From Terebella lapidaria (lineage: Eukaryota > Annelida > Polychaeta > Terebellida > Terebellidae), in NCBI GenBank assembly GCA_949152475.1, contig OX424559.1, forward strand, positions 15,283,809 through 15,347,808: a DNA stretch of 64,000 bases, read 5' to 3'. The notes under the pieces are model-generated. The model had not been told where the DNA came from. It did not search any database and saw nothing but the letters and a program-made list of their open reading frames with translations. How positions within the stretch are numbered: the stretch's first letter is position 1; each line of letters begins with the position of its first letter. Below, piece after piece: positions 1,555 to 54,600 of this stretch. The position numbers and the translations under genes are program-made.

Positions 1555-2000
1555 TGAACAGTCATTATTCTATTTTTAGGGCGAATATTTTGGCACAAAG
1601 ATGCCCCGAAATATTTCAAGAGGGATGTATTTTTCAGTTTCTTGATTTTCGCAATTAATGGCTGCTATTTTCGTCGAAAAGGGTCAATTTTGGACTTTGG
1701 CGGCCATTTTCTCAGAAACTGTCTGATCAGTTTTGAGACTTTTATTTCAGAAGATTCCTCTCTTGTACCTTCGTAACATGTATAAGTTTCGTTGCTCTCG
1801 AATCACCAGTCTGTGTGTGGGGCCATTTCGTTTTTTTATGGGTCGACACAAAACATTTTTTTCTCCCATGTCAAGTCACTAATTGTTTTGAGCCATTTCC
1901 AGCGAAAAAAAAATGCTTATTTTTCGGAATATTGTTGGACCCAATTTTTCCTTCATAATGGGAGTTATATTCTGTTTGTTGCATACAGAAAACTGTGACA
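1555..2000 (+). repeat. R1-family body in the intron of locus P
   Basis: Positions 1555-2000 are R1 body: the blocks with 'tttcaagaggga', 'tttggcggccattttctc' and 'gggtcgacacaaaac'. The block is repeated inverted at about 50990-51440 in locus B, so it predates the locus duplication. Confidence 0.7.
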
Positions 2001-2640
2001 TAGATTCAAATTAGAAGATGAATTTGGAGCGATATCGAACTTTTCACCGTAAGCTATATCTTCACTGTTTTTTTTGCATAGAGAAAATTGTGACATATAT
2101 TCAAATTAGGAGATGACGAAATTGGAGCAAGATCGAACTTTTCACCATAAGCTATATCTTCACTCTAAAATGTGCCAGACTTAGTTTCAAGTTGAAATTC
2201 AAGGTAAAAGTTGACCAAAACTGCATCTCAAGCTGAAAATATAACTTGTGGTGAAAGTTCCGATCTGCTTTTAAATTCGTCAATCAAATTATATGCCAAA
2301 CTTGGTTTCAAGTTTTTTGAAATTACAACAAAAGTTGACCAAAACTGCATATGAAGATGATAAAATTTAAGCCGAATCAAACTTTTCATGAAAGTTCTAT
2401 TTTATCCCCCAAAATTATACCGAATTTGGTTCAGAGTTGAAATTCCAACCAACTGTTCGTCAAACTGCATTTCAAGATGATGAAATTGAACCCAGATCAA
2501 TGTTTTTTCACAGACGATCTATTCCCACCCCCCCCCCCAAACATGTTCCAAGTTAGGTTCGAATGCTAAAAATAATTCCAACTAAAAGTAACCAATACTG
2601 TATTTGAAATTGATTAAATACTTTTACGCCATGATACATG
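2000..2640. repeat. Degenerate ~115-bp tandem repeat
   Basis: Four to five diverged units share 'gaccaaaactgcat', 'aagatgatgaaatt', 'cgaacttttcac' and 'ccaaacttggtt'. The same array appears inverted at about 49990-50720. It is non-coding and there are no other signals. A C-run sits at 2508-2518. Confidence 0.65.
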
Positions 2641-2689
2641 GAAACGTTCAAGATGATTTAGAGGTATATCAAGACATCATTCCACATGA

Positions 2690-4030
2690 ATGTACATGTT
2701 TTTCACGATTTTATGTTGACATATTGACATATATGTACCGATGACTATACAGTCTGTAGCTTACACGTCACTGAGTTCAACCTAATAGCCATCACTCATT
2801 AGTACCATAATAATAAAAATTTATCTAGGACACTGCACCCAATGATCAAAGAGCGAAATTGAATGCCCTTCAAAACTTCTCTTCTCGACTGCTGGTGCAA
2901 ACCACGTCGCTACAGCGTTCTTTGTGCATTTGGAAGTGTGTCTTCTCAAGATGGCTCTGATGCCATTTGAATGTACTTCGTCCCATGGTTAATACGCAAA
3001 GTCACGTATACAGCAGGCGAGATAGGCGACAAGATAGCATACATGTGAGAGCTCAAATTTACGGTTATACTGAAAGGCTATACGCCTCTATTGTATGGTC
3101 ATTTACATTCATATGAAGACTATTTTCTGTTCAGCAACTCCACATATTCATTAGTTCTCCAAACGGGGGGTGTCCCGCCGCCTACGATATATGTCATTTA
3201 TGTTTGACTTGAAGCAAAGCGTACGGTCAATGACTCTCACTGTAGCCATGAAGTGCTTATATTAAACCCTATACATACACGTACATGCATTGTAGTAAAT
3301 GAATATCGATGGTATACAGTGGGTACATTCGGTCGACCTTACAATAATTAAATGGTATTTATATAGTGCTGTGATCGAAAAGCATCTCATAAAACTAGAC
3401 GTCAAGACTTCAAGGCCTTGGAGGCATTTCGATAGGAAGCATTAGGAAAGAAAACGGTAAATCGGCAACAATAAAATAGATCAAGTGCAAAGATACCCTT
3501 TTCACAGGCAGTGTTCGGCAGTGTTCGCACGGCGGGTATTTCAAACGTTTCTGGGGTGCGGGGGGGGGGGGGATCAGCGAGAGGAGTGAAATAGATGTGT
3601 TTCACTAATTAGGCCTAAATGTCGCTGCCTTGTTATGCCGGATACGCAACTTGCAGAATCAGTTAGACTTGATAACTCAACGAGATTACTGACCTGTATA
3701 TCCAAAGCCATCAAATGTGCATTAAGGTGTACGTGAAATAACATATACATCAGCGCGCCCAACTTCCTGTTTATCCGAAACAACACCGCAGGCTGTTCAA
3801 TAATGAAAACTTCAAACGTCCTCTTATATTTAAATTTCAGACAAAATGAGCTCTTGCAAATGCTACCACTGCAAAGGAAGGCTTCGAAGACGTTACGATG
3901 GTGATGCAGCATTGTAAAAGATCGCATGCTGAATTAAAATTCAGTGTTTTGTGCCGTGATGGCTGATGGCTATATGCATATAGCATGCTTTCGAGTGCTA
4001 CATCGGTTTATCTGGCACTCTGTCACCAAA
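2690..4030. repeat. Mirrored repeat block, also near 44 kb and 56-57 kb
   Basis: Inverse copies of different parts occur at 43860-44530 (for example 'cagcatgcgatcttt...ctgcatcaccatcg'), at 54401-54560 just after the sequence gap, and at 56280-57540. The order matches 43860-44530 inverted, so part of it belongs to the P/B inverted duplication. The 54-57 kb copies imply a dispersed element as well. The open frames at 3402-3605 and 3574-3927 read through repeat and are not supported as genes. A G-run is at 3559-3571. Confidence 0.6.
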
Positions 4031-4179
4031 TCTAGGCCGAGCCTTTAGGCACGACATGCACGAAACTTATACACATCACAATGATACATATGAATAGTCG
4101 TATTCATCAAATAGAGATCAAGTTCTAAACAGAGATAAAGATAATTAACAGATTTCGATAAAATGCCCGCCGAAATAAA

Positions 4180-5000
4180 ACAAAAAAACAACGAAAAAGC
4201 CGTTTTACCTTTCAAGGTCATTGAAGTTCGAATTCAAGGTCACCACTGAAACCGCAATATATGACTTCCCATTTGAATGTGCCAATATTTATGGTCTATC
4301 TTGAAGTGTACTCCATACAGCTTCTATACTGGAGGTAACAATTCATAGCAGTCCAAACAAATTTCAATGTTTGGTTTGGGACAGAAGAAACTATCTTGCC
4401 GACCCGTAAAAAAAATCAACACGCAGGCCGGAGACTCAATGACAACGAAACTTATACACAGCATGAAGGTACATATTATTAAGGAGAATCTTCTGGAACC
4501 AAAATCTGAAAACTGATCTGAGAGTTTTCGATAAAATGGCCACCAAAGTCCAAAAATCACCATTTTTCGACAAAACAAATGCCGTTTTGACCTTTCGAGG
4601 TCATTGAAGGTCAACTTCAAGGCCATCATTGAAACCGCAAAATATGTATGATTTCTCATTTAAATATGCCAATATTTAGCCTCTATCTTGAAGTGTTCTA
4701 AAAGTTTACATGTACTCAATACAGGCCCCATTATAAGGGAAAAGGGTCCAAAATTTTTCAATGTGAAAAAAATAGTTCTTTTGCTGGAAATGGCTCAAAA
4801 CGAATAATGACTTGATTTGAAGCGAGAAAAAACATCATAGGGGTACAAATTTAGTCTAAATGCTGAGATAGCTTACTGGACAATGGCAAATTGTCCAAGC
4901 AGTCTTTAACTGAATGGCCGTTTAGAGGTTTCAATGTCATTGTATGTCAAATCTTCTCCAAAAAACTTCTCATTTGTATGTGCGAACTGTCTGAGCTTGT
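4180..5000 (-). repeat. R1-type repeats with AGGTCA motifs
   Basis: Contains 'tttcaaggtcattgaagttc', 'tttcgaggtcattgaaggtc', 'caatatttagcctctatcttgaagtg' and 'aaaatggccaccaaagtcc' blocks. These are repeated in reverse at 39296-39480, 43600-43850 and 34280-34460. No gene is seen apart from exon 2 of locus P immediately beyond. Confidence 0.55.
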
Positions 5001-5031
5001 TTTCAGAGGACATATTACCACGGCCCCACAC

Positions 5032-5141
5032 CTGTCTGCGATCCAGCCAAATACGAAGTTACCCACGCAGCGCCCCGCCAGAAAGATGGCACTGATGCTC
5101 TTGGCTTTGCCCTTGCGCGCCGTGCTGCACACGAACTGCCA
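5032..5141 (-). CDS. SLC22-like transporter, locus P, exon 2
   Basis: This 110-bp exon reads WQFVCSTARKGKAK followed by SISAIFLAGRCVGNFVFGW and IAD. It is the SLC22 TM2 exon (family equivalent TEW-x-LVC...). The acceptor is tttctcag and the donor is ACAG|gtgtgg. It carries two bases over, completing Arg with exon 3. Against A exon 2 (12605-12714) the predicted protein differs by one residue (I for L), so this exon is intact although exon 1 of the same locus is frameshifted. Confidence 0.85.
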
Positions 5142-5503
5142 CTGAGAAACGATGATATTTTATATTCGTGATGAAACGAAAAACGGTGTACAAAAACAGT
5201 AGATCAAAAACTCAACTCACAGATGTTTTGTCGAATTGTTTTTTTTTATGACAATTCTCGTTATGACGTCATGTACGCTACTATAAATCATTAGTTTATA
5301 TTATTAGTTTTGTGGTGTGACATTAATGCAGCAACAATATTTTTATAAATAAATAATCTTTCAAAGCCAGATGTCATATATAATATTACTCCATATTATC
5401 TTGATGCTCGTGCCCAGAGACGTTAAAAAAGTTACAATATAGTCGTGTTGGTGCTGTCGGTTTCGTGAAACTTGCGTTTTGCTCAGAGGTATTTTACTTA
5501 ATG

Positions 5504-6092
5504 ATATGGTGTACAATGGCGGCCATTTTTGGATCTCGTGTTTTCGCCTTGGAAAGTAGGGCGAGAACGCCAAAGTACGAAACGAAAGACGAAACTACGA
5601 AGCGAAAACCCGAAAAGAGGAAGCGAAAACTCGAAACTGAATCTCGTCTTTTTGCTTCGTGATTTGTGTTTCCACTTCGTGTTTTCGCGTTCTCGCCCAT
5701 TTTTCTATAGACGAAAACCCGAGATCCCAAAATGACCGCTGTCGTGTGCACTGAATAATCTATATATCTGACCTGGTGAGTCGGCAAGGATTATCCGCCA
5801 GACATGTCTGACTGATAATGAACAAATGTCTGAAATGGCTTTATTGAATGAAATGAAAAAATCCCCTGATTGGTCAGAGTTACTACTGTCACGTGGAATG
5901 CCTGCGTAATACTGCGCATGCGCACATATAATATGGTATTTACTTGCGAAATGACGAAAACACGAAGCGAAATAACGAAATTTAATCTCGACTTTTCGCT
6001 TCGTCTTTTCGTCTGTTCGCTTCGTGTTTTCATTTTCTTAAAGGCGGAAACACGATATCCAGAAATGGCCGCCATGGTACACCATATGTACA
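5504..6092. mobile_element. Foldback/MITE pair rich in CGAAGCGAAAACACG
   Basis: The left end reads 'ggtgtacaatggcggccat' and the right end 'atggccgccatggtacacc', an inverted terminal repeat. Inside, 5513-5600 pairs with 5650-5745, and 5940-6090 repeats the pattern. 'acgaagcgaaaa' and 'ttttcgcttcgt' recur many times in both orientations, so the segment can fold back on itself. It is probably one or two nested non-autonomous elements in intron 1 of locus P. The overlapping frames on both strands (5465-6118) are shadows of the low-complexity repeat. Confidence 0.65.
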
Positions 6093-6381
6093 TGTACAAA
6101 CAAAGATATCAAATTTAACACATTTCTAGTCTTTCTTTGAAATTGTCAAGAGGTGTGGACCAATAAGTACTTGATGTGTACACACAAGCGAATACCTAGA
6201 TGCCAATTTCACACGTCTCTGAGAGAATAATGGATATCTTGTGATAAGTGAGCAAACTATAAACCGTACGTCGGTCTACTGGGTCACTCAAATGATAATG
6301 CATGCAATTGGCATAAACAAATATACATATTTACTTGTGGTTTGCACGGAAAAAATGGATGTGTAAAAAGACTCTAATCAC

Positions 6382-6823
6382 TTCTGTCACGATGGTAGAC
6401 GTGAAAGTCGAATTGTTGAATAACCACTCCTCGCATTTCCCTACGTCATATCCGGTCTCGTTCAATTCCGCCTCGGCATCCGCTATGATACTTGTATTTC
6501 CGACTCGACTGCCGTCACATGACCTAGGGGGGAATTCCACGTCAAACACGTCACAGTGGGAAAGCCCGTCGTTTTCCGCCATGACGTCATCACTCGTTGG
6601 TATAGTCATGCGCAGACGCTCCTCTAAGCTGCAGTTGCCATATGGTGTCGTTGAAGAGTTGTGGATGCTTGCACCAGTATTTCTTTGGCGTCGCCGCCAT
6701 GAAATTAGGCGCCATGACTTGGCTCGCAATAAATGTCTCCTCAAATCCTAAAATCAGCATCACTAGATATTGATACTTTCCGAATTTGCCGATTCGACGC
6801 TCAAAAAAATCGTCAAACTTCAT
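6382..6823 (-). pseudogene. SLC22-like transporter, locus P, exon 1 (frameshifted)
   Basis: The exon starts with ATG at 6823: MKFDDFFERRIGKFGKYQYL, then TM1 and the start of the large extracellular loop (YWCKHPQLFNDT). At about 6650 two bases are missing relative to A and B (codons for Ile-Phe-Gly), which throws the frame. The second half continues in another frame as GNCSLEERLRMT ... STFTSTIVTE. Length is 442 bp against 444 expected without the A-specific insert, confirming a net 2-bp loss. The donor is gtgatt where A, B and F have gtgagt, so it is weaker. A start or splice site that skips the lesion is not evident. The sequence supports a disabled exon, barring an assembly error. Confidence 0.8.
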
Positions 6824-7065
6824 GCTGTCGAGTTGCACTAATCAACTCGAATGCAGAGAGACACGAACTTTATGAGTACATGTAAATGAATCAATGTCAG
6901 TGAATTCCCTCGTTTGTCGTAATCAGAACAAAGCAAGCTGACTCCTAGGGTCCATCACTCCATATCGACGACTGCCTGCTCGCTCGCTACATCTGCGCTC
7001 AGACACGACAGTGCCCTATATGTAGCACGATACTGGGCCTGAATATTAGACCCCACACACCCATA
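6824..7065 (-). promoter_or_regulatory. Conserved 5' leader/promoter-proximal region of locus P
   Basis: Reading on the minus strand, this stretch aligns with the upstream regions of A (11270-11490) and B (36590-36852). Shared pieces include 'attcaggcccagt', 'tgtctgagc' and 'tcgtcgatatggagtga', a run before the start codon, and 'gtctctctgcattcgag'. Conservation of upstream DNA in all three starts fits either a 5' UTR/promoter or simply shared duplication. I see no convincing TATA box. Confidence 0.5.
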
Positions 7066-7139
7066 GCAGGTATATAACCAACAAATTATACCTGACGCGC
7101 TGAACCTTGACGATTCACTCAAAGTACCTAAGTTTCCGG

Positions 7140-7330
7140 CTTCGCATTCGCCTCGACACGAAACACGTTTTCTAATTTTTCTAACTCGTTCAGACCGTTT
7201 TTGCTTGAAATACTATTATTACTTGGAATACTTCACCTAGGTGTCAAGCGGCAATTGTCTACCGGATTTCAGTCTTCTATCGCAAAAATTGAGAAAGTTG
7301 GCATTCTACCCCAACCTTAAAGGAGGACTT
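7140..7330 (-). repeat. Half of the FB1 foldback family
   Basis: 'tttttctaactcgttcag', 'cttcacctaggtgtcaagcgg' and 'aaaattgagaaagttgg' match the left arm of the FB1 elements at 12779-13335 and 35987-36551. A mirror copy is at 35440-35640. Only one arm is present, so it is a solo arm. Confidence 0.6.
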
Positions 7331-7439
7331 CCTGTCAATGTGTATTGGCTTCAACCCATGATTTTTTAGTTTGGTTGATACTTTATTTCACCAAAGGCCT
7401 CGGGCCCATGTTTATTTACAAGAAAGTGCAAGTATGAGC

Positions 7440-8790
7440 GAAGCAAAATGGTCCGATTACCTATTACCGTCGCGTTGCGTCCGTCCGTCGTCCGTCCGTC
7501 CACATTTTTAGCTTCCGGCCCATAAGCTTACCGGTCCATAAGGGCCGATAAGCTATTGTCGTGGTTTTTCGTCCGACTACGTCCTCGTCGTCGGCGTCGT
7601 CGTCCGCATCTTCTACTAACATTTTTTATCTTTTTTTCGGGAAGATGACTTTGCCCATAAATTTGTTTGAATATGTGTTGGGTCAATACGCCCAGACGTT
7701 TTTTTTTCATTTTTTTATTGAATCGTTTATGCAGTCTGTACGGCCATTTTTATGGCGAAAATGGCTGTTTTAGTATGTTTTTCTAATTAAAAAATTATTT
7801 TCTCAAAAACTGTCTGATCAGTTTTGAGATATTGGTTTCAAAATGTTCCCCTCATGTATAATTATAATATGTATAAGTTTCGATGCTCTTGAATCGCAGG
7901 TCTGCATGTGGCGGCCATTTTGATGTTTTCTACGGGGCCCAAATGAGACTTTCCCATGTTAATCTCTCCTATGCCTCATAATGGGTCACATTGTTACTGA
8001 TATCTCACTTATTGAGATTAACCCTTTCACTGCCGGAGGCGACTTTAGTCGACCAAAATTAGGGGAAATCAGGGCAAATTGAAACACGATCAATGAATAT
8101 TAAACTTATGTTCCAGTAGTGAAATTTTGAAATTGCATTCTGTACATTGTACTTTTACGAACAAACCCATCTTATATTTTATTATAATGGAGAATGTTTT
8201 CATAATAAATAAATCATTCAAATACATACTTTATAATTTCTTCAAAATAACTTGGCAATGTGAAAAAAGGTCTGGAACAGTTTCGGGCAGTGAAAGGGCT
8301 AAAGATTTGGAATCAATTGTGGACATATAGGAAGTGTATGCTGAATTCTCTCGTGACCTTGAATTTGACCTCATTTTCAAGGTCAAAGCACACAATGGCT
8401 AATACCTCGCATATTATCGATTTTACAGCTTAGAACAATTGTGGACATAGGAAATGATATATGCCGAATATTCTAATGACCTTGAATTTGACCTTTGACG
8501 TCGAGGTCAAAGGCACAAATTTTCGAGGTCAGATCACAAATGGCTAATATCTCGCTTGTTATTTACTTTACACCTTGAGAATCAATTGTGGACATTTTAG
8601 AAATGATATATACTGAATGTTCTCTTGAATATGACCTTTGACCTCATTTTCAAGGTCAGCGCACAAATCGGCGCATATCTCACTTATTGTCAACTTTACA
8701 GCTTATAAATCAATTGTGGACATATAGGAAATGATATATGCTGAATATCCCTGTGACCTTGAAGTTACCGGACCATCGGTCCGATCACCT
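7440..8790 (+). repeat. R1-family element with 3-4 AGGTCA-rich tandem units
   Basis: It begins near 'gtccgattacctattaccg' and CGTCCGTC runs, and passes through the R1 body ('gtctgatcagttttgag', 'tgtggcggccattttgatg'). It then has units at about 8310, 8437, 8582 and 8711 sharing 'tcaattgtggacatatagg', 'gatatatgctgaat' and 'tgaccttgaatttgacct'. A second terminus 'gttaccggaccatcggtcc' is at 8764. It is non-coding. Confidence 0.7.
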
Positions 8791-11269: not shown

Positions 11270-11490
11270 GGGTGCGTACATTCAGGCCCAGTCTCGTACA
11301 ACTCGTGTCTGAGCACAAATGTAGCGAACTGTCAGTTAGTCGTCTATGTGTATGTGGAGTGTATGTGGCCTCGATCTAGGGTGGCTTGCTCTGCTGTGAT
11401 CACAACAAAGTAGGGATTTCACTGACATATGTCAGTGAAAGTTCGTGTCTTTCTACACAAGAGTGGAGGGGGGTTGTGCATCTTGACAGC
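11270..11490 (+). promoter_or_regulatory. Conserved 5' leader/promoter-proximal region of locus A
   Basis: It aligns with the regions upstream of exon 1 in B and P. Shared strings include 'attcaggcccagt', 'gtgtctgagc', 'atgtgtatgtggagtg' and 'tgatcac', the last followed by a start-proximal 'cgacagcatgaag'-like context. The start at 11491 is favoured because the family begins MxFDDxxE and because P uses the same ATG. Open frame upstream of it (from 11386) is leader. Confidence 0.5.
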
Positions 11491-11976
11491 ATGAAGTTCG
11501 ACGATTTTTTTGAGCGTCGAATCGGCAAATTCGGAAAGTATCAATATCTAGCCGTGCTGATATTAGGATTTGAGGAGCTATTTATCGCGTTACAAATCAT
11601 GGCGCCTAACTTCATGGCGGCGACCCCAAAGAAGTACTGGTGCAAGCATCCACAACTCCTCAACGACACCGTCTTTGGCAACTGTAGTTTAGAGGAGCGT
11701 CTGCGCATGACCGTACCCATCAGTGATGACGTCATGGCTGGAAATGACGGGCTTTCCCACTGCGAAGTGTTTGACGTGGAATTCCCCCCTGGGTCATGTG
11801 ACGGCAGTCAAGTCAGAAATGCAAGTATCGTAGTGGATGCTGAGGAGCTGATGTCGAATCGAAGCGTCGCGGACGTCGGCGACAGAATGGAAGTGAACGG
11901 GACCGGATATGACGTAGGGGAATGCGAGGAGTGGGTCTTCGACAACTCGACTTTCACGTCTACCATCGTAACAGAA
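11491..11976 (+). CDS. Locus A exon 1
   Basis: 486 bp, 162 codons: N-terminus, TM1 (about residues 21-41) and most of the extracellular loop. Loop Cys are in YWCKHP, GNCSLE, SHCEVF, GSCDGS and GECEEW. Sequons are NDT, NCS, NAS, NRS, NGT and NST. It ends VTE|gtgagt in phase 0, joining TrpGln of exon 2. The frame stays open to 12087, but that extension is intron. Confidence 0.88.
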
Positions 11977-14900
11977 GTGAGTATATCATCTATAGAGGTC
12001 TCTCTGTCTATCAGGCAACCTACAAAAAAATATATATATGTTTATAATAACGTAAAAACGTCACGCATTATCAATTGCTCGACCTAATATACCGGGGAAC
12101 TGTAAATATGTCGTTTTTGAAAGTTTGTCACAAAACATACATTGCTTTCCAGACAATATGATATTCACATCCAGGACTCCAGGTCCCTATTGCTCGTGTT
12201 TAAAATATGTGCTCGTATTGGGTCAGGCTTTTTACTTTGAAGAAGGTTGTAGAATTGTATATATTTGTTGAACATGTAGTATGAAGACGTTAACTCTCCA
12301 TGTAAAACGCAAGTTTCAGGAAACAGAAAGTACAAAATTAAATAAGACAACAATAAGGAATTTTTTTTCAAATAACTTTCGGCGATGTGCATCATTTTAG
12401 CTGAAAAAATCAATCTTTTCGATCATTGAACAAAGCCGATTTCTCGTTGTTGCATTAATGTCAAACAATGATTTAATTTTAGGCCTACACATGTATAGTC
12501 CTTCAAAAGCATTAAATATTGTGAACATTTTCACAGCTGTTTCGACAAGTTCTTTGCTCTTCCATGGACATAAAATATAACATTCAACCATCGTTTTTTT
12601 CCAGTGGCAGTTCGTGTGCAGCACGGCGCGCAAGGGCAAAGCCAAGAGCATCAGTGCCATCTTTCTGGCGGGGCGTTGCGTGGGTAACTTCGTATTTGGC
12701 TGGCTCGCAGACAGGTGGGTTAGTTAAGGATAACCTGAACAATTACACAGCAATGCACCCTCCATTTCATACATACTACTTTGATTCTAACTCGTTTACA
12801 CAGTTTTTTGCTGATATTTCTGCTAAATGCTATCGTTCTATAATTTGGCATACTTCACTTGGGAATCAAACGGCAAAATTTACCGAATTTCAGAATTCTA
12901 TCACGAAAATTGAAAAAGTTGGCAATCTATAGTATGTTAAATTTAGCCCTGTCATTTAATTTCTGGGTCCGCACACAATTTCGTGCATTTGCTCGGTTTT
13001 GTAGTGGTGCAATCTTTCAAAATCAGCATGTTTGTGTAGAATACACCCCCAATGTGTCATCTGGTCTAAAATTACAAAAAATACTTCGAATCCTGGTGGA
13101 TGTAAACAGGATCAAATCCTCGAATAAGCTCAGATTGTCGAGATCCCGTTTTTGGCTGAAATTTAACATTGGGGTAGATTGCCAACTTCTTCAATTATTG
13201 CGATAGAAGTTTGAAATTTAGTAGAAAATTGCCGTTTGTCTTCGAGGTTAAGTATGCCAAATTATAGAACGATACCATTTAGCATCGCGAAGATATCGTC
13301 AAAAACCGGTGTAAACAAGTTAGAAAAATCAGAGTATACGTTCACTCTCATTACTTCACCTCATGTTTGGTAGGAATCGTCACACCCAAAAAAATCCACA
13401 GAATAGCTCAGGAATCAGGGGGTTCATTTAGACTTGCTGACTGAAATTTAGTTCCAAATCATGTTCAGAATAGAATATAATATGACTTGAATAAGTAATT
13501 TAAGTTTTGATGGTATTTTTGCTGATCGTCAAATAAAGGTCAAGGTGAATTGAATCGAGAACTTCGGGGTAAATGTATGATCCCTATTGAATCATATGCA
13601 TTTGCCTCCACCCCATTGGGCGCTAATCGTAATGATCACATTCAAAGTGATATTGGGAGTTATTGGGAGTTATGGCTTTTGCCACACATTTCTGTTGAAT
13701 GTACAGAATTGAAATGTGGTTAGTTATTCCTGGGTTCCAGGTTCGGTCGGCGTCCAGTCTTCCTTGTTGGAGGCGTCTTGAACGTGATCCTGGCGCTGGG
13801 AGCGGCGTTTGTTCCCACGTATCTACCGTTCCTGGTGATACGTTTCGCCCAGGCTGTCATGGCAACAGGAAAGACCAACACGGCCTTCATTCTGGGTGTG
13901 TATACTTACTGCTGGTCTAGACATGTATGTTTTCATGGGTCGTAACAATATACCATTTTTCCATGTTTGATCCTCCAATGTTACATAACATTAGCCGAAA
14001 TGTGTCTCAAATTGCCACGAAATGTGATCAAGTAATAACAGCTTGGTGGTGTCGCTTACATTACTACAGCAGTCTGTTTATGCACAATATGCTGCACGAA
14101 ACACGAATTCAATATTAGTTACACATAAATTGGTAATTTCATCAATTACCAATGCTCATGAAATTTTAATTTCATGAGGAAGTTTAAATACATTGCTTAA
14201 CGAACACTCCCTCGGAGGAGAGATAACCAGTCATTGAAAATAACCCACTGGCATGGCGTCGCAGCTGTCGTCATTCGTCGTCGTCGTTTTCATTTTTAGG
14301 TTGCCGGCTCTCTGGGCCGATAAACTATTGCCGTGGCGTTGCGTCCGTCGTCCGTCTAACCGGGCATACCAGAAGGGTTTACGGGGAAAGCTTAGGAGAA
14401 AAAAAGCTGAAAATGCCTCCTAACTAGGTTTAAGCCAAAAGGTTGCTTTTACGGGGATTTTTTCATGACTTACGGAGGAAGTTAAGATAGGAAATCTAAC
14501 ATTGGGTCTGCCCGTAACGCCCGTCCGTTCGCACGTCTAGCCGTCCGTCCGTCCGTTCACATTTTTATCTTTAAAGTTTACTGTCGAATCTTTCCGAAAT
14601 TTTGCACAAAAATACCTAAAAATAATTCCAGGAGAGTTTTTTTTTTTTTTTTATAGTTTTTTGGGTTACCGCAGCTATGGTCTGAAAACCTATTGGCATG
14701 GCGTTGCGTCCGTCATCCGTTGTCTATCCGTCGTCGTCGTCCACATTTTTATCTTTTATGTTTACAGACGAATTTTTTTGAAATTTTGCAGAAAAATACT
14801 TTAAAATAATTCAAGAAGGAGTTATTTTTTGTTTTTCGATTTTCGCATTTTTTTTGTCAAAATAGCGGCCTTTTCAATGAAATATGCCTGATTTTGTCAA

Positions 14901-17900
14901 AATCTGTCCAGTAACTTTTTTTCTTTTTGGTCAATAACACTCCTCATATCCTATGATGTCTATGAATTTCCTTGCGCTTGAATAGCTCGAAGTGGGCCAT
15001 TTTGGCCCAAACTCGGCTTTTTTTTTTTTTAATGGGACTTTCCCATTATAAATTCTCCTATGCTTTAATATCTCCATTGACTAAGAATCAATTGTGGACA
15101 TATAGGAAATGATATATGCTGAATATTCTCGTGACCATGATTTTGACCTCTGACCTCCGTTTCAAGGTCAGAGCACAAAGTGGCTAATGTCTCACTTATT
15201 ATCGACTTTACAGCTTAGGAATCATTTGTGGTCAAACTAATAATGATATATGCTGAATATTCTCGTGACCTCGAATTGATCAATGACCTTATTTTCAAGG
15301 CCATGGGACAAAAGGCTCATATCTAATATATAATTGTCCGGTAATCTTTATTAGCCCTTGGGCTAAATTTTTTTGTTAATGGACCTTTGGTCAGATAACC
15401 TATTCCGTCACCTGTCATCATCCATTGTCGTCCTTCTCCCGTTTGTCACACGTCTTTATCTTTAAAATTCACATTTAAAATTTATCTGAAATTCTGCACT
15501 AAAATAAATAAAGATATTTCAAGAGGGAGATATTTTTAGTGTGTCGGTTTTTTTTCTCGCTTTCTCGAAATGGTAGCCTTTTTGTTAAAATTTTTGGACT
15601 TCGACGGTCCTTTTCTCGAAAACTATTCAGTAATTTTCTTCCTATTGATGCATAAGACTCCTCATATGTACCCCTATGATATTTATAAGTTTCGTTAGCC
15701 TTGAATCGCTGGTCGTGTGTGTGGCAGCCATTTCGATTTTTTGATGGGTCGCCTTGAGGGACAATTTTTGTCCCAAGCAAGTCATTATTCGTTTTGGGCT
15801 ATTTTCAGTAGAATAACATATTTCCCCTAGGAACATGTTTGAACCACTTTCATCCACTTTCTCCTTCCAAATGAAAGCTGCACGGAGCAAACTCCTGGAA
15901 ATCCTAGTAAACTCCTAGATAAATCCTAAATTTTGGTATAATTCAAATTGGAAATCATATGTGGTGGTTTCAGTAGTGACCTTGAATTCGACCTTCAATG
16001 TCCCTGAAAGGCCACTCACTCCACCGCAGTGGATAAGACGTCGGACTCGTAATCCAAAGATCATGGGTTCTTTATATTGATCACGAAATGAAACAACCAG
16101 AAACGACGTGTGAATCATCAAACAGCTCGTTTCAGTTTTCCTTCAGACGAAAGAAAAGTATCCCCAAAACCTCCTACTTAATATTGGGATTCAATGTTAC
16201 ACCATGTATTCGATCCCCTCCTACCACCCAACTAGCTGCCGTACTTTGCCGTGTTTCAGCCCTGGAGTTCGCGCCGCCCTCCAAGCGTGTCACCATGGGA
16301 ACTGTCTACTTCACCTTCTGGGCCTTCGGGATGTGTGTGATGGTGGGCGTGGCTTATCTGATAAGACACTGGAGGCACCTGCTCCTTGCTATCACCATTC
16401 CTGAGATTCTTCTCTATGTCGTCTTCTACTTGTTAGTTCAAACAATTTCATCAGTTCTGTTCAAAAATCAAGTTACGTTCTTATACGATTAGGCTCAAAA
16501 TGTGGGGTATTTTCTTACATCGAGTTCATAATAACAAATTTTTTGTTAATCTTAGTCAATGTGAACAAAATTTGGTCAAAAGTAGCCAAAGTGTATAACC
16601 ATCGACTTTGGGTTTTTCCAGCACATTTCCCGAGTCTCCGCGATGGTTATATACACGTGGACGGACTGATGAGGCAAACAAAACAATACAACACATTGGC
16701 CGAGTTAATGGCGTGGAGTTACCACAGGAACTAGACATCGACACCACGGTAACAGCAACGGCAACAACAACGGGAACAACAACAACAATTTTTGCCATCA
16801 TCAAGATCAATTCTTCATAACCAGCATCTTCTTCGTTTTTTGCAGATTGAAAAGAATAAAACTTCGCCGGTCGATTTGGTTCGCACGCCTGAAATTCGAC
16901 GTGTTACGTTCATCATGCTGTTTATATGGTGCGTATATGAGATCACACGACAATCGAGGAATAACACCACTTGTCGTGGGCTATAAATCGGTTTAAAGAA
17001 AATAAACCTTCTGGGAAAAGGTGAGAAATGTCAGGAAAATGTGTGGTGTAGCAGTGCTTTTTGCCCAGAAATGTGTTGTAGGCCTATGTTCAATTGTTGA
17101 TCAGGCAATGGTAATTTTATGATGTTTGGCTAAAAAAAAAGAAAACATATTTAAAAAAAGCACTTTTGTATCATTGCGCGCCAGAAAACATGTGGTTTGA
17201 ACGGTACCGTCACTCGAAGGACATTACAAAATATGAATATTCATATTCGCACGAATCTGATATAATTTTATTCCAAGGTAATAATCTTGCTAATCACGTT
17301 ATACGGAAGTAGTATTCTGGCTTCTTTTTCCCGTCATGGTTGTCACCAATGTAGGATCTGACTGTGGCGAGAGGCCATATACATATACATGCATGTAGAC
17401 ATTTCACGGAATAGGGAAAGAAATGAGAAATATTTCGTAATGATTTGTTGGTCCACAACATTGTAATCGAACTCGAATGCCGTCTTGTAACAGATTCAAA
17501 TTTTCTCTCAAACATTTTCCCGTTCACACCACTTGTTTATATACACAAAATAATTATGTTGATTTATTGTCTGCCTCCCCCCCCTCCCCTCCCCTCACGC
17601 CTTGTACAGGGCGGTGTGCGGCGTATCCTACTATTCCTTCAACTTTGGTATGGCCGAGCTAGGCGGGGACCTCTTCCTGACCACGTTGCTAGCCGGCGTC
17701 ACGGAGCTCCCGTCAGCTCTCATCATCATACTGCTGTTCACCTACGGGGGGCGCATCCCCACCTTCACAGCCTCCCTGCTACTGACCAGCATACTGATTC
17801 TCTCTTCGATGGCCGTCATGGGCGGTACGTATCGATTTTTGTTACCGGATCTTTGGTCCGATAACCTATTGGCATGCCGTTGCATCCGTTAAATTCGTTA

Positions 17901-20900
17901 TCAGTGGTCATCCGGCGTCATCATTCACATTTTTATGTTCGGAATTTATGGTCGAATTTTTCTGGGATTTCGCATAAAATACCTAAATATATTTCAACAG
18001 TGAGGTATTTTTTTTTTATTTTCGCATTTTTTGTTCAAAAATGGCAGCCATTGTTTCAGAAAAAATGGCCAATTTTGGACTTTAACGGTCATTTTCTCAT
18101 TTTTTCAGTAACCTCCACATATATACCTATGTGATGTGTATGAGACACGCTGGTTTGCATGTAGCGACCATCTCGATTTCTCGACGGGTTGGCAAATAAT
18201 GTTTTCGTCCCAAGTCAAGTCATCATTCAGTTTGAGCCATTTCCAGCAGAGAAAAAGAATTATTTTCCTCCATTGATTGATGCAAACAGAATGTTTGTAG
18301 TTGTATTAATGGAATATAGGTAGTCGCATCAGGTGATTTGTCGGTGACCTTGTTCCTTCATAATGACAGCTGTATATAGAACACTTCAAGATATTCGCAC
18401 AAGATATTCGCACATTCAGATGGGAAGCCATCTATAGTGAGTTATGTGGTGATCTTGAATCTGACCTACAGTTACTTTGAAAACGGCAATTTTAGTGTAA
18501 AAAAGACGGTTGTGGCTCAACACTATAAATTTCTCCAGTAACCTTCCTTAGCATTTGGGCTGATGTTTTATTTCTTGTTTATCGATTTTTTCACGTTGAT
18601 TCAAAGTTTGAAGAGAGCGCTATGGAGTGTGGCATTTAAACAGCAATTTTTCTCATCCTAGATAATCTCAGAGAACTTTATGGATGGCAAAATTGTACAT
18701 TCTGCGTAGACTTTTGGAAATTGTGGGAGTTCTATGTTTAATCAAAATGCCTAATAATAATTAGCGATAATTAGCGAACTGAATTATGCTGAAACATATC
18801 ACATATGTTTACAAGAAATATTATACCCAGTGATCGCTGTGGCGGATTTTCTCGGGCTCTTCCCAAACCGCGAGTCTCTGTCGATTTAGCGCGGACATTA
18901 TCCCCGGATGGCTGATCCGTTGTGGAACCTTGGTGAAACCGTCATGTCACCGGTAGGACCTGGACACGACCGTGGCGTTACCATACCGATGCCTGGAAGT
19001 CCGTAGTGAAACCGTGGTGCATCCATGGCCAGCGGGAGATATTTCGCAAGCCGGTAGAACAGTGGTCTTGCCACGGTCGCTGTACGGTTCTATCATGGAC
19101 ACACAATGTCTATCACGGTTCCACCACAAATCACCCCGGTTCTTCACGGTAGTACTATGGTGGCACGTTGGAAATTGAACCGTGGCACGATCGGAGTGTA
19201 CCGTCGATCGGGGTGTTATTTTTTACCCCCAAGTGTCCCAGACCACGTCGGGTCATCCCGGTAGCGCAACAGGTCTGGTGCACGAGTCAGGGGTGAACCT
19301 GGACGTCCATAGTGGATCCGGGGTGCAGTGAGACTGTAACATATGTAACATAAACTGTTTATTCAGTAACAACAATGTACTTCTCACTCACTCGTTCACT
19401 TGATCACATGTACTCCTGGTTCAGTCCACTTTTAAAAACACGGATTTAGTCCTATGTTAATCCTTGTAGGGATTCACATCACTTTTCTGGTATAGATCTC
19501 TGAAACACGTCTATCAACATCGGCGTCTCTCACTCCATTCCTCGAGTTCTGGCTGGGACCTTGCGGAAACTCGGGAAATACATTACGAGCTGAAGCACAG
19601 TGCTTACACAGATTAAGGTACCGCGCGGTACCTTAATCAAAGATGGCGGGAGGTAGGTTATGCTTCGACCTTTCATCGGCGATTTCTAGCATATACATTA
19701 GAAATGCGCGTATATTTTTGTGGTTTCTGAGAGGGAGTCACATCATATACACTGTGGATAAGTTACAAGAGATGTTATACTGGCAGTCGCGAGTAATTTG
19801 AGGGAGAAGAAATTGGCTTGATTATGGTACCGCGTGAGGTTGATTAAGGTACCACGAACAGCCTTGAATCGTGGATTATGGTACCACAACTACCCATTTT
19901 ATCCATTTAATGTTTTTTTTTCTGTTAAAGAGGTGCTATTCCAGTGTTACTTTTTTGACACACAGTCACCCGAAAACGGCAATATTTACGAGGTTCAGTC
20001 GTAGTTTTTAATGTTTAAATGTGTTTAATGGTGGTTACCAACTTTGTCATAGATGAACATAATATATGAAATAGACATGCTGATACCACCGACCTCAAAG
20101 TAGGGCTCGTTTCCATGGCAACAGGTCCATTTCCCATAAAATGGCAAAAATATTGAAGATCGGGCTGCTTTAAAGTGTTAATGTTTAAGGACAGATCAAC
20201 AACCTTGTCTAAGATATAAAACACCTGTGGGACAGGGATGGAATGCTACCAGCGTGGCCCCTGTGTGGGACTCGTTGCTATGGCAACAGGCAGTCTTAAC
20301 CATCCGTGCCAGATCTATTTTTTTGCACAAAAGGGCAAAACAATGAAGATTGGGCTGCTTAAAATTGTTAATGGATAAATAGCCAGGATAATCGGCAAGA
20401 ATGAAATATATTACATACAGTTGTAAATGACAAGTTTCCGAAGAACAATATTCTACATTCAACGCAATTTTACTGCAATATCTCTCACTTTTTTGTTTCT
20501 ATTGTGAGCCAGTTTTGTCAGATGCAATTCATATGACTCAAATGATTACTGAGTACAGGACCATTTTTACATTTTTAAACGATAAAGTTTACAGAACAAG
20601 TAATCATACAGACCCCAATAGAACAATTTATGTGCATTTCATAAATACATCACTGCACAGTGCACCATCCTATTGTATGCCAGTTATAAACGTCGCTGTC
20701 ACTATAGTGTCAGCGGACTCAATTGATATAATCAATTGATTGACAACGCGGCTTATTTCACATGAACGGTTCTGCTGGTAATCTCTAATATCAAAATCTT
20801 CTTTCATTAACACCCTGCAGCAGTGCTAGACAAGAAAAAAAGTCTCCAAATTTCCTGACACAGATTCGGAGGGTAAGTTCTGTGATCGTTTTTGAAACGT

Positions 20901-23285
20901 CTTCAGCAACAAAATTGCCAAGATTACATTAAGGTTCTCTGATGATCACCCAGTGCTAAATAGTGACAATCAGATCACATACAAACTCGAGAACTTCAAA
21001 AGGCTAACATCAAACGAAGTGTGTAACATCATCAAATCTTCACCATTGAGATCATCGCGAAGTGACCCCATCCCAATTTCGCTGGTGAAAAAATGTCAGG
21101 AGTTGTTTGCTGAACTCCTTGCTCTGCAGTGGTGTATTTCCGATCTCAATCAAACAAGCCTTGATCACACCCATTTTGAAAAAAACCAACAACATGGGTC
21201 TGACACTGAAGAACTGTCAAACTCATGAAACTATAGACCGGTATCGAACCTCCGATTGCTATCTAAAATATAATATTTTTGAAAAGGCAGCCGATCAACA
21301 GGTACGCCAGTACACAGTGTCTGGTCTCGATGAAGCACTCCATTCGGCAATATACCAGCGGCACCATAGCACGGAGACTGTATCGGCCAAAGTACACACC
21401 GGATTCCAAAAAATTGATTGAATCCCGGCTTTAATACGATAACATTGTATATATTATGGAGGTAGTAATTTTCCAATGTGATGAAAACAGAAAATATATG
21501 CTCTTCTTACTCTATTATCCCACCAAGACGAATTTATGTTCGAAAGTGCACACATTTTTCTGATTTGGTACCATAATCTTTTACGCGTGGTACGGTAATC
21601 ACAGGCCGCTCAGCTCTGTGTGGTACCGTAATCAAGCCGATTTCTTCTCCCACAGATTACTCGGGACTGCCACTATAACATCTCTTGTAACTTATCCACA
21701 GTGTATATGTTGTAACTCCCTCTCAGAAAACACAAAAATATACGCGCATTTCTCATGTATATGCTAGAAATCGCCGGTAAAAGATTGAAGCATAACCTAC
21801 CTTCCGCCATCTTTGATTAAGGTACCGCGCGGTACCTTAATCTGTGTAAGCACTGTGTGAAGGATCATATAAGCAGTCCTGTGATTGGTACAAATCAGTT
21901 TTGTGGTGGGGTTTAATTTACATATTATGAATACATTTGCATGATGTGGCGCATGATCGTTGGTTGTCATGGCAAGGTGATAGAATAGAATGTAATAGCG
22001 TGAGTATGTGTGGGAAACGTGTCAAGTTTGCAAGTTTATGCAGGTGGGCTGTAGAACACTGTGTATTCCAGGCCGAGGTCAAGGTCGAAGTACACGTGAT
22101 GTGCGGGGAAAGTCCCTTCCTGACAAAAATATTCTACAACACTAGAGTTAAACTGATAATCATTTTCCATCAATTAAACCCACCCCTCCCTCCACACAAC
22201 AGACACGCGTCACCACTGGCCCTTTGTCACTCTGACCCTAGCTGGTAAATTCACCCTGACGGTTGCATTACTTATGGCCTGGATCTACTGCGGGGAGTGT
22301 TACCCTACGTCCATCCGGAGTATGGGGGTCACGTGGACGGCGATAGGCGCACGAGCCATCTCTCCCCTCGGGCCTTTCCTCGTCATGTTGGTAAGTGATA
22401 GTGGTCCTTCGCGAACAAACGGACCCCTTTGGTCGAATGTTCATGGTCTTGACTCGTAGTGAAAGATGGCAGAGTCTTGTTTAAAGATCACTTGAATTTG
22501 GTGATATTTGGTGGTAAATGTTAACACTCATGATTCCATGGGGTATTGAGTGAACAAGTTTAATTCATATTGCAGGTTAAGATTTGACGCAAGAAAGTTG
22601 AATTAATTCATGCAATAAAATTTAATACTGTAGGTCATTCATAAAGAAATGTACTTATGCAGAAAATAGCTAATCCAATCTGCGACAAAGGGTATCATTG
22701 TTAAACTTTCTCCACAACAGTTATTTCAATTTCAAGGTCTAATATACATAAATTAATCACCTCTTCCTCAGGGTGATTTCTCCCTTTACCTGCCGCCCAT
22801 ATTGATAGGACTATTGACCCTGACGGCCGGCCTCTCCGTGCTCCGGCTGCCTGAGACGAGGAACAAGCCCATGGTGGAGACGATAGAGGCCGGGGAGGCG
22901 GCCATCCGACAGAACAAGCTCAGGCTCTGTCAGTGGGTGTTAGGCTATGTACAAGATGAAATGATTATTTGGTCAATTAGGGTAGTTGCAGTTTTACCAA
23001 TTGAACATCAAATTCTTATCCATTCACATAAGCATAATATACATGGGAATCATTCCTTTCTTCACTTGTTACTAGGTAGTTATAATAGATTTACACGTGA
23101 AACAATTGTAGCTGTCAAAATGTAAGTATCAAACTCACGGCAATAATTGTCAGTCGTTTCATTATTATTCCAGTAAGAGAGGGAAGACGTTCATTAACAG
23201 TAACAGCGAACAACACACGGAGGATGAGGGTGTTCATCTCGATGGCATGTCACATTCGGACAAAAAAGGCCACGTATGCGCCTAG
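11491..23285 (+). CDS. SLC22-family solute transporter, locus A (complete, 10 exons)
   Basis: A plasma-membrane major facilitator, SLC22 (organic cation/anion/carnitine) type. The substrate cannot be deduced. Exons: 11491-11976, 12605-12714, 13741-13895, 16260-16431, 16622-16748, 16846-16928, 17610-17824, 22203-22390, 22772-22932, 23174-23285. They sum to 1809 bp, 602 residues plus stop, with every intron GT-AG and phase-consistent. Landmarks in order: MKFDDFFERRIGKFGKYQYL; TM1; a large extracellular loop with several Cys and six N-glycosylation sequons; TEW-QFVC; GNFVFGWLADRFGRRPV (MFS signature); PPSKR; AYLIRHWRHLLLAI; FPESPRWL; GGDLFL and ELPSA; ECYPTSIRSMG; LPETRNKPMVETIE; a charged C-tail. 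Length is slightly above the usual 540-600. Oddities: the second GRR motif (after TM8) reads GRI. Exon 1 has a 14-residue insert (around ELMSNRSVADVGD) that P and B lack. The last three exons are duplicated downstream. Confidence 0.88.
12605..12714 (+). CDS. Locus A exon 2
   Basis: 110 bp between ttttttccag and ACAG|gtgggt. Encodes WQFVCSTARKGKAK, TM2, and GNFVFGWLAD plus two bases of the Arg codon completed by exon 3. Nearly identical to exon 2 of locus P. Confidence 0.9.
12779..13335. mobile_element. FB1 foldback element in intron 2 of locus A
   Basis: The left arm 12785-12950 ('ttctaactcgtttacac', 'ttggcatacttcacttgg', 'aaaattgaaaaagttggc') is the reverse complement of 13150-13330 ('ggggtagattgccaac', 'aagtatgccaaatta', 'gtgtaaacaagttagaa'). 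About 200 bp of unrelated sequence lies between the arms. A second copy with the middle in the opposite orientation is at 35987-36551. No transposase is encoded, so this is a non-autonomous foldback. Exact ends and target duplication are unclear. Confidence 0.75.
13741..13895 (+). CDS. Locus A exon 3
   Basis: 155 bp between gttccag and G|gtgtgt. Encodes (R)FGRRPVFLVGG, TM3, PTYLPFLVIRF and KTNTAFILG. Same length and phases as the P exon. The B exon is 5 bp shorter. Confidence 0.9.
14285..15365 (+). repeat. R1-family repeats in intron 3 of A (two nested starts)
   Basis: R1-like termini are at about 14297 ('aggttgccggctctctggg') and 14659 ('gggttaccgcagctatgg'), each followed by CGTCCGTC runs and 'cacatttttatctt'. 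Two ~134-bp AGGTCA-rich units follow at about 15085-15330. The end is near 'taatctttattagcccttgggc'. Non-coding. Confidence 0.7.
15366..16015 (+). repeat. Further R1-family copy in intron 3 of A
   Basis: Begins 'ggacctttggtcagataacc', contains 'ttgatgcataagactcctc', 'tggcagccatttcg' and 'gatgggtcgcc', and ends in AGGTCA-type 'gtgaccttgaattcgacc'. The minus-strand frames at 15499-15890 lie within this repeat and are not genes. Confidence 0.65.
16016..16075 (+). repeat. tRNA-derived SINE fragment (truncated)
   Basis: 'cagtggataagacgtcgg', 'actcgtaatccaaag' and 'catgggttc' look like the D-arm, anticodon arm (CGT) and start of the T-arm of a tRNA. The B box breaks off into unrelated sequence, so this is a truncated SINE head rather than a tRNA gene. 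Confidence 0.4.
16260..16431 (+). CDS. Locus A exon 4
   Basis: 172 bp between gtttcag and TT|gttagt. Encodes (A)LEFAPPSKRVTMG, TM5, the AYLIRHWRHLLLAITIPE segment and TM6. The frame upstream to 16088 is open only by chance. Confidence 0.9.
16622..16748 (+). CDS. Locus A exon 5
   Basis: 127 bp from ttttccag to ACG|gtaaca. Encodes FTFPESPRWLYTRGRTDEAN, then KTIQHIGRVNG and an acidic stretch: the PESPRWL motif and start of the central cytoplasmic loop. Failure to splice here would add about 23 residues rich in Thr and then stop at 16818, because the intron starts with an ACA-type simple repeat (16750-16792). Confidence 0.85.
16846..16928 (+). CDS. Locus A exon 6
   Basis: 83 bp from tttttgcag to TG|gtgcgt. 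Encodes IEKNKTSPVDLVRTPEIRR then VTFIMLFIW, the end of the central loop and the start of TM7. It is the shortest exon and is bounded by a 97-bp intron upstream. Confidence 0.85.
17610..17824 (+). CDS. Locus A exon 7
   Basis: 215 bp from tgtacag to GGCG|gtacgt. Encodes VSYYSFNFGMAELGGDLFL, TM8 and TM9 with ELPSALIIILLF, GGRIPTF and MAVMGG. GGRIP replaces the GRRxP usual in SLC22 at this point. Confidence 0.9.
17838..18540 (+). repeat. R1-family copy at the start of intron 7
   Basis: 'gttaccggatctttggtcc' at 17842, a degenerate CGT run, 'cacatttttatgttcgg', and the R1 body. It ends with AGGTCA-type sites near 18450-18520. It starts only about 15 bp after the exon 7 donor. Confidence 0.7.
18835..19330. 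other. GC-rich island in intron 7, unclassified repeat
   Basis: Much GC-richer than its flanks, with many variants of ACCGTGG/CCACGGT in both orientations ('gaaaccgtggtgc', 'gccacggtcg', 'gaaccgtggcacg'). The opposing short frames at 18947-19178 overlap each other and are not supported. Confidence 0.4.
20080..20380. repeat. Diverged direct repeat pair inside the transposon
   Basis: 'ggctcgtttccatggcaac' and 'gaagatcgggctgctttaaag' (20104-20185) recur as 'gactcgttgctatggcaac' and 'gaagattgggctgcttaaaa' (20269-20370), about 170-185 bp apart. They are two tandem units of unknown origin. Confidence 0.6.
20850..21425 (+). pseudogene. CR1/L2-type LINE reverse transcriptase fragment
   Basis: Two overlapping frames carry the N-terminal RT region of CR1-like LINEs: DPIPISLVKKC, then (other frame) PISIKQALITPILKK, a broken remnant of the NYRPxSNL segment, and HSTETVSAKVHTGF. 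Frameshifts separate them, and the catalytic FxDD region is absent. It lies inside the CACAGTG-ended element, so it was either inserted into the transposon or carried by it. Confidence 0.75.
22203..22390 (+). CDS. Locus A exon 8 (proximal cassette)
   Basis: 188 bp from cacaacag to ATGTTG|gtaagt. Encodes (D)TRHHWPFVTLTLAGKFTLT, WIYCGECYPTSIRSMG and TAIGARAISPLGPFLVML: TM10, TM11 and the ECYPT version of the family's ELYPT motif. Paired with the homologous exon at 24646. Confidence 0.9.
22772..22932 (+). CDS. Locus A exon 9 (proximal cassette)
   Basis: 161 bp from cttcctcag to TGTCA|gtgggt. Encodes GDFSLYLPPILIGLL, TM12, LPETRNKPMVETIEAGEAA and IRQNKLRLC. The donor choice is fixed by the matching phase of exon 10. 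Confidence 0.9.
23174..23285 (+). CDS. Locus A exon 10 (proximal cassette, stop)
   Basis: 112 bp from attattccag. Encodes the cytoplasmic tail KRGKTFINSNSEQHTEDEG, then VHLDGMSHSDKKGHVCA, stop TAG at 23283-23285. It shares SEQHTEDE with the distal version but differs at its very end. Confidence 0.82.
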
Positions 23286-36589: not shown

Positions 36590-36852
36590 GCTTCCATGGG
36601 TGTGTGGGGGGTCTGATATTCAGGCCCAGTCCCGTGCTACCTATAGGACACTGTCGTGTCTGAGCGCAGATGTAGCGAGCGAGCAGGCAGTCGTCGATGT
36701 GTATGTGGAGTGATGGGCCCTGATGGAGTCAGCTTGCTTACTCTGTTCTGATCACGACGTACGAGGGAAATCGCTGACATAACACTAATGATTCATTTAG
36801 TCATAAAGTTCTTGTCTCTCTGCACTCGAGTTGATTAGTGCAACTCGACAGC
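36590..36852 (+). promoter_or_regulatory. Conserved 5' leader of locus B, start codon missing
   Basis: Matches the leaders of A and P. At the expected start the sequence reads 'gacagc' then 'aagttcgac', where P has 'gacagcatgaag': the ATG triplet is deleted. An in-frame TGA lies upstream at 36832-36834. Confidence 0.6.
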
Positions 36853-37293
36853 AAGTTCGACGATTTCTTTGAGCGTCGGATCGGCAAATTCGGAAGGTAT
36901 CAATATCTAGTGATGCTGATTTTAGGATTTGAAGAGATGTATTTTGCGTGCCAAGTCATGGCGCCTAACTTCATGGTGGCGACCCCAAAGAAATACTGGT
37001 GTAAGCACCCACAACTCTTCAACGACACCATCTTTGGCAACTGCAGTTTAGAGGAGCGTCTGCGCATGACTGTACCCATGAGTGATGACGTCATGGCGGA
37101 AAACGACGGGCTTTCCCACTGTGACGTGTTAAACGTGCAATTCCCCCCTGGGTCATGTGACGGCAGTCGAGTCGGAAATGCAAGTATCATAGCGGATACC
37201 GAGGTGGAAGTAAACGGGACCGGATATGACGTAGAGAAATGCGAGCAGTGGTTATTCGACAATTCGACTTTCACGTCGACCATCGTTACAGAA
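36853..37293 (+). pseudogene. SLC22-like transporter, locus B, exon 1 (ATG deleted)
   Basis: 441 bp encode KFDDFFERRIGKFGRYQYL, TM1, and the extracellular loop with YWCKHP, GNCSLEERLRMT, DVMAEND, GTGYDVEKCEQW and STFTSTIVTE|gtgagt. The frame is open throughout, but the initiator triplet is gone. The next in-frame ATG lies inside TM1 (VMLILGF), so a normal N-terminus cannot be made unless an upstream exon supplies it. It lacks the 14-residue insert of A, as P does. Confidence 0.8.
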
Positions 37294-37459
37294 GTGAGTT
37301 GAGCCTTTATACACATCACTGTTATCGTGCAACCACAAGTAAATATATATATATTTATTTGTGAAAATAGCGTGCGTTGTCATTTGGATGACCTAGTAAA
37401 CCGGGGCACGGTTTATAGGTCCCTTACTTGTCACAAAATATCCATTATTCTCTCAGAGA

Positions 37460-53470: not shown

Positions 53471-53788
53471 GCTGATAACTTGTGATAAGCTTCAGTCACA
53501 AAATGAAACAACCAGAAAAAAAAGATGTGAAGTCAACGAGCTCAATTCAGTTCCCTATCAGACGAAAACAAACTACAACATGTATCCCCAAAACACCTAC
53601 TTAATTGGTGTTCAACTGAAGGTTTTCCTCGGCATCTTAAAAACATACTCTTATTAAAACATGGTAACGCCATGTAATTCTTATATCCCTCCCCATATTC
53701 CTTCAGTATCCGATTAGCTACCATACTACAACATGTCTTCGATCACCGCCTCTCACTGATACAACTACCATACTTTGCCATGTTTCAG

Positions 53789-53960
53789 CCCTGGAGTTCT
53801 CACCACCCTCCAAGCGTGTCACAATGGGGACTGCCTACTTTGTCTTCTGGGCCACTGGGATGTGTGTGCTTGTGGGCGTTGCTTATCTGATAAGAGACTG
53901 GCGACATCTGCTCCTTGCTATCACCATTCCTGAGATTTTCATCTATGTCGTTTTCTACTT
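53789..53960 (+). CDS. SLC22-like transporter, locus B, exon 4
   Basis: 172 bp from gtttcag to TT|gtcagt. Encodes (A)LEFSPPSKRVTMGTAYF, AYLIRDWRHLLLAITIPE and TM6. No lesion. The preceding ~300 bp of intron also match A intron 3 ('atgaaacaaccagaaa', 'tatccccaaaac'). It retains the Asp of the family's RDWR motif, where A has His. Confidence 0.82.
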
Positions 53961-54167
53961 GTCAGTTCATACAATTTTGCTAGTTCAAAACTGTTATTCA
54001 AACTTCAGGTTACCTCTTGAAAGAAGTGCTTGAAATGTAGATACTTTTCTAACAACTAGTTTATAAAAACAACAATTTCAATTTATTAAAGCCATTGTTT
54101 ATATTCCCTTGCAAAATGTAGCCAAAACTAACCCAAATATATAACCATCGACTTTGGGTTTTCCCAG

Positions 54168-54200
54168 CACATTTCCAGAGTCTCCGCGATGGTTAATACA
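54168..54200 (+). CDS. SLC22-like transporter, locus B, exon 5 (cut by gap)
   Basis: After tttcccag the sequence gives (F)TFPESPRWLI and then runs into N. The phase agrees with exon 4. Any later exons of B would have to lie within the gap or are lost: the DNA after it is repeat. Confidence 0.75.
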
Positions 54201-54400
54201 NNNNNNNNNNNNNNNNNNNNNNNNNNNNNNNNNNNNNNNNNNNNNNNNNNNNNNNNNNNNNNNNNNNNNNNNNNNNNNNNNNNNNNNNNNNNNNNNNNNN
54301 NNNNNNNNNNNNNNNNNNNNNNNNNNNNNNNNNNNNNNNNNNNNNNNNNNNNNNNNNNNNNNNNNNNNNNNNNNNNNNNNNNNNNNNNNNNNNNNNNNNN
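54201..54400. other. Assembly gap, 200 N
   Basis: Exactly 200 N, probably of nominal length. The sequence jumps from SLC22 exon 5 to a repeat (the 3.7-kb block family), so the true distance is unknown. Confidence 0.98.
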
Positions 54401-54600
54401 TGAAGTTATTTATTGAACAGTCTGCGATTTTGTAAACAGGAAATTGGGCACGCTGCTGTATATGTTATTTCACGTACACATTCGGTGATATGGAATATAC
54501 CGATCAGTAATTTCTGAGTTATCAAGTCCAACTAATACAGCATGAACGATAGCAACACGACAGTGGCCTTAGGACAGATTTCAGTAATAGCCCCGGCCGT
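54401..54600 (+). repeat. Copy of the 3.66-3.80 kb repeat
   Basis: 'attgaacagtctgcgatttt', 'aggaaattgggcacgctgc' and 'tatgttatttcacgtacac' match the reverse complement of 3661-3800. Confidence 0.7.

Follow-up and report, generated by a model that had tools for sequence, protein, structure and literature searches.

The 64,000-nucleotide stretch of DNA from Terebella lapidaria analyzed here (the window) contains a whole non-autonomous element of 2262 bp (19596..21857), with the best database copies aligning to positions 3/6-2267 of a query spanning 19591-21862. TGAAG is read on both sides of it as the left (19591..19595) and right (21858..21862) target site duplication, and the terminal heptamers are exactly CACAGTG at 19596-19602 (plus strand) and, on the minus strand, at 21851-21857 (CACTGTG on the plus strand), which confirms the ends and flanks described in the original prediction. 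Terminal inverted repeats lie at 19596..19831 (plus) and 21622..21857 (minus), with 94% identity (221/236 bases identical); at 236 bp, they are shorter than the approximately 300 bp initially estimated. Both repeats contain the same perfect 28-bp palindrome, GATTAAGGTACCGCGCGGTACCTTAATC, at repeat bases 16-43 (19611..19638 on the left, 21815..21842 on the right). At repeat bases 45-52, each also carries AAGATGGC (19640..19647, plus strand; 21806..21813, minus strand), a putative YY1-type core that reads as the TR5 sequence of ProtoRAG ends reversed. Ends of the element family begin CACAGTGCTTACACAG. The predicted lack of an RSS-like nonamer is borne out, with 3/9 bases agreeing with ACAAAAACC at a spacer of 12 and 1/9 at a spacer of 23. 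In the interior, a decayed stretch on the plus strand (20896..21425, end approximate) contains, by eye, reverse-transcriptase-like words (NYRPVSNL in relatives), and a Pfam search with three interior frame pieces from relatives of the window element returned no families.

Exon-like frames on the plus strand flank the element at 16037-16489 and 22757-23122, and were read as a membrane transporter. In Pfam, the former matches Sugar_tr below threshold (E 3.2e-4; 20.1 bits, the cut-off being 22.3) and the latter no family. The proposed location in a transporter intron is therefore plausible from the frames on either side, though the sub-threshold or nil Pfam results lend it little weight. Repeated exon-like frames at 11380-12084, 36835-37299, 16037-16489 and 53668-54030 suggest that the window holds tandem copies of the transporter gene. 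A further frame, at 54102-54464, contains a run of N.

The first 27 bases of the element occur 215 times (118 + 97) in the 761-Mb assembly with up to three mismatches, compared with 0 + 0 for a reversed-pattern control, and 174 of these ends (108 + 66) are exact. Pairing and linkage were counted among 166 listed exact ends, with 8 exact and 41 inexact ends lying outside this set. These 166 form 58 adjacent left/right pairs less than 20 kb apart, with spans between about 58 bp and 14 kb (median about 2.27 kb). Over nearly the full length of the window copy, five others (L002-L006) are 99% identical to it, a near-identity that suggests recent movement, and internal deletion variants occur from 301 bp (L048) upward. 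A candidate close sister family, with just the outer 12 bp in common and a different base at position 18, found no support (47 matches compared with 84 in the control). A literature search with little subscription coverage returned no paper describing this family, which is not proof of absence.

Several loci show other arrangements. At C2:49211782-49230336, 12 exact left ends succeed one another on a single strand, the initial 11 at intervals of about 1663 bp, and a single right end comes next at 49232523; the element end is here now part of a tandem array. Another locus (L055, 4626-9522) has one right end and two left ends in tandem, the ten bases of flank ahead of each left end being identical. 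The interior of a third copy (L040, about 1670-8373) is non-coding, and frame pieces recur in it at a distance of about 3.36 kb, which suggests an internal tandem duplication. A further place (L062, C1:61503508-61503565) is a 58-bp perfect palindrome comprising the two tips alone; it lacks a target duplication and may have arisen by deletion and not by insertion.

Target duplication lengths were counted over many copies, as the original prediction had proposed. An exact 5-bp duplication with no longer match flanks 21 of 22 two-ended copies; the exception (L046) has CAATT on one side and AATTG on the other, sharing only a 4-bp word. Two-ended places thus number 23 in all, with 21 exact 5-bp duplications, this 4-bp word and the palindrome with none (L062). 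Consistently different lengths, which would have pointed to another type of element, were not found in these copies. Three empty sites support the 5-bp duplication. For L042, neighbouring tandem repeat units hold CCTAG once; for L044, the window itself at 39293-39422 matches the joined flanks at 125/130 bases with no gap; and for L005, positions 4748-4640 of L004 match the joined flanks at 101/110 with one gap. Joined flanks of L002 and L006 matched only diverged repeats (69-79% identity, gapped) and were rejected as empty sites. The targets lean AT: 32/105 duplicated bases (30.5%) are G or C, compared with 40.2% in the flanks (p 0.046), and T occupies position 5 in 15/21 duplications, both tests having been chosen after seeing the data.

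No transposase of Transib or RAG1-like type was found between such ends in the copies read, nor was an autonomous relative encoding another type of transposase. The 10 scanned copies hold no open frame longer than 146 aa, and reverse-transcriptase-like words are common to their longer frames. RAG1L and RAG2L of this genome gave no match at E <= 0.05 to the loci L001-L056 (the best was to L040, with 28% identity over 39 aa and E 0.099) and none to L061, while Pfam searches with two frames of L039 returned no families. Seven pairs span >3.5 kb, of which three were read. A 5.86-kb copy on C8 owes its length to a nested LINE, its interior being a non-LTR reverse transcriptase frame of 677 aa (RVT_1, E 1.6e-33), and the long frames of L050, of 873 and 449 aa, by eye resemble a nested LINE as well. 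An autonomous copy may lie among the other four long copies, at C6:21375664-21381228, C8:25461861-25467581, C14:18608899-18615534 and C15:17604480-17618545.

The genome was also searched for Transib itself, using a sequence that we take to be the signature of this group, which was checked against moth Transib 6pqn (E 1.1e-18) and then made into DNA patterns. With up to one mismatch, the pattern has a single genome match, reading EEDSEASNK, compared with none in the control; with up to two mismatches there are 18 matches against 9, and a looser pattern gives 16 against 6. The 166 listed exact ends have none of these matches within 190 kb, and a protein search with the Transib motif, run without a positive control, returned no candidates. 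As the pattern counts are about two-fold above those of controls, a diverged Transib may still exist elsewhere in the genome.

RAG1L is the only RAG1/Transib-type protein found in the genome. PF12940 has 18 genome matches, counted as 11 places, two of which (L057, C7:27375500-27383500; L058, C9:33531700-33539700) each contain an open RAG1L frame, one of 1042 aa (PF12940, E 1.9e-88) and the other of 1054 aa, together with a convergent 487-aa RAG2L-like kelch/PHD frame. The genome's RAG1L gives E 9.3e-177 with lancelet RAG1L (6b40) and E 9.4e-6 with moth Transib (6pqn), and the words DGMGD, IDATH and SEGNEAGNK, which are presumably those of the catalytic blocks, are visible in it. Judged from these frames, the genome has an apparently intact RAG1L-RAG2L transposon. 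The two loci, taken with their upstream sequences (L059, L060), are 98.9% identical over 8.4 kb, indicating that the transposon was recently mobile or duplicated.

The ends of this resident transposon have been placed on one side. Its 5' end starts CACATAGAAACG, in a longer reading CACATAGAAACGTCCC, and the first 367 bases of this end have eight matches in the genome. Six of these (94-100% identity) lie 4.1-4.4 kb upstream of RAG1 matches; of the other two, one is 79% identical and has no neighbouring RAG1 match, and the other covers 44 bases at 2.8 kb from a RAG1 match. On the 3' side, the copies cease to be homologous at TTAA, where neither a GTG nor a duplication is seen. RAG1L copies with a placed 5' end therefore have a different tip from the element family, and no RAG1 match, out of 18, comes within 56 kb of a family end among the 166 exact ones listed. 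With a different end, 13/17 consensus positions of RAGL compared with 5/17 for the element, and no linkage to the listed ends, the RAGL family of this genome was rejected as a direct relative.

The window element belongs to a real and apparently recent family of non-autonomous transposons whose ends are of Transib/RAG type. Exactly defined ends, a constant 5-bp fill-in, deletion variants and a lack of coding capacity in the copies read point to cut and paste by an enzyme acting in trans. A transposase encoded at another locus would recognize the CAC... tip together with subterminal sequence, would cut precisely at CACAGTG, and would join the ends to the target with a 5-bp stagger, the filling-in of which would give the 5-bp duplication. 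The most probable mover, which we favour, together with this scheme as a whole, with reasonable though far from complete confidence, is a DDE transposase of RAG1/Transib type, within the CMCT clade. This ranking follows from the terminal pattern: CMCT transposons mostly have 5'-CA..TG-3' termini and 2-5 bp duplications, as described in the available text of PMC12730594, and a CAC heptamer with 5 bp is the pattern of Transib and RAGL. The Transib/RAG reading of the original prediction is accordingly plausible. In its favour are the heptamer-type ends, the 5-bp duplication in 21/23 places and the three empty sites; against it are the failure to find such a transposase between the ends read, the lack of an A-rich block, the AT-leaning targets and the different ends of the resident RAG1L transposon.

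That these structures are chance inverted repeats or artefacts, with no transposition involved, is exceedingly improbable. L046 and L062, the only two places without a clean 5-bp duplication, are what might be cited for it, and the 215 ends compared with 0 in the control, the exact duplications in 21/22 copies and the three empty sites rule it out. A less likely but credible alternative to a RAG1/Transib-type mover is a different superfamily with a 5-bp stagger, such as hAT5 or an undescribed CMCT lineage, to which the AT-leaning targets and the failure to find a Transib signature or linked RAG1L near the listed ends would be congenial. CACAGTG ends are at odds with the hAT end consensus. The duplication length cuts both ways, since hAT5 makes 5-bp duplications, whereas EnSpm, Plavaka and the other CMCT lineages named in the available text of PMC12730594 make duplications of 2-3 bp. 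We consider it unlikely, and clearly more so than a different superfamily, that the genome's own RAG1L-RAG2L moves the family in trans, acting on RAGL-dependent, symmetric, heptamer-perfect ends. Such a mover would be at hand, with RAG1L and RAG2L-like frames open at two loci, a close match to the lancelet protein with visible catalytic-block words, copies that were themselves recently mobile or duplicated, and no other RAG1/Transib-type protein found; non-autonomous RAGL elements have been published (PMC7204232, in the part available), and each repeat has the putative YY1-type core, which is found in ProtoRAG ends in the other orientation. The 5' ends of RAGL copies nevertheless agree far better with the RAGL consensus than the element does, 0/166 listed ends are close to RAG1 matches, and the targets are not GC-rich.

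Transib/RAG-type transposons are the group behind the origin of antibody-gene shuffling. If the mover is of RAG1/Transib type, the genome would offer dozens of recent natural substrates with symmetric ends beside an apparently intact RAG1L-RAG2L pair, and the end features that the recombinase needs (heptamer, A-rich block, palindrome, YY1-type core) would become testable. Were the resident RAG1L-RAG2L itself responsible, the result would be a gene-free swarm with exact RSS heptamers at both ends and sites that include a gene intron, resembling the proposed first step towards V(D)J recombination, in which an RSS-ended insert is split from its transposase. If the mover is of another type, the combination of an exact RSS heptamer and a 5-bp stagger would not be diagnostic of Transib/RAG, which bears on end-based annotation.

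We assign the family to neither Transib nor RAGL, since for each group some of the features tested are lacking. Heptamer-type ends with 5-bp duplications are described for Transib, RAGL and RAG (PMC7204232, PMC8289069, PMC4411706, each in the part available). Transib elements and the present family have in common symmetric, heptamer-like CAC ends and 5-bp duplications. The family differs in its inverted repeats, which are 236 bp long and contain a palindrome, in having yielded no Transib transposase in the copies read, and in its AT-leaning targets, whereas the available text of PMC8289069 reports targets biased towards GC for ProtoRAG, Transib and RAG. With RAGL elements, including ProtoRAG, the family shares the CAC start, the 5-bp duplication and a putative YY1-type core in the inverted repeat. 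Against the protostome RAGL end consensus CACTWMCAAACKTYKBB, however, the element agrees at 5/17 positions, compared with 13/17 for the RAGL end of the same genome, and its ends lack the A-rich block (AAA at positions 8-10); the element copies read contain no RAG1L or RAG2L, whereas the RAGL copies of the genome end in CACATAGAAACG. In ProtoRAG ends, lancelet YY1 binds a conserved GCCATCTTG (TR5) (PMC8289069, PMC7481187, both in part); the AAGATGGC of the element is the TR5 core turned round and placed nearer to the palindrome, and may be either a true common feature or a coincidence.

More distant systems agree with the family in single features. With hAT5, for which the available text of PMC12730594 gives a duplication of 5 bp, the family has the duplication length in common; the same text gives 3 bp for EnSpm/CACTA. 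No transposase was seen in the element copies read to compare with that of hAT5. The end sequence CACAGTG differs from what we take to be the hAT consensus. EnSpm/CACTA elements make short duplications, of about 2-4 bp, unlike the 5 bp found in 21/22 copies of this family. With the recombination signal sequences of V(D)J joining, the family shares the exact consensus heptamer, CACAGTG; the nonamer ACAAAAACC is missing at both 12 and 23 bp, which leaves a V(D)J-type signal without support, and the sequence is that of a mobile element end rather than a joining signal.
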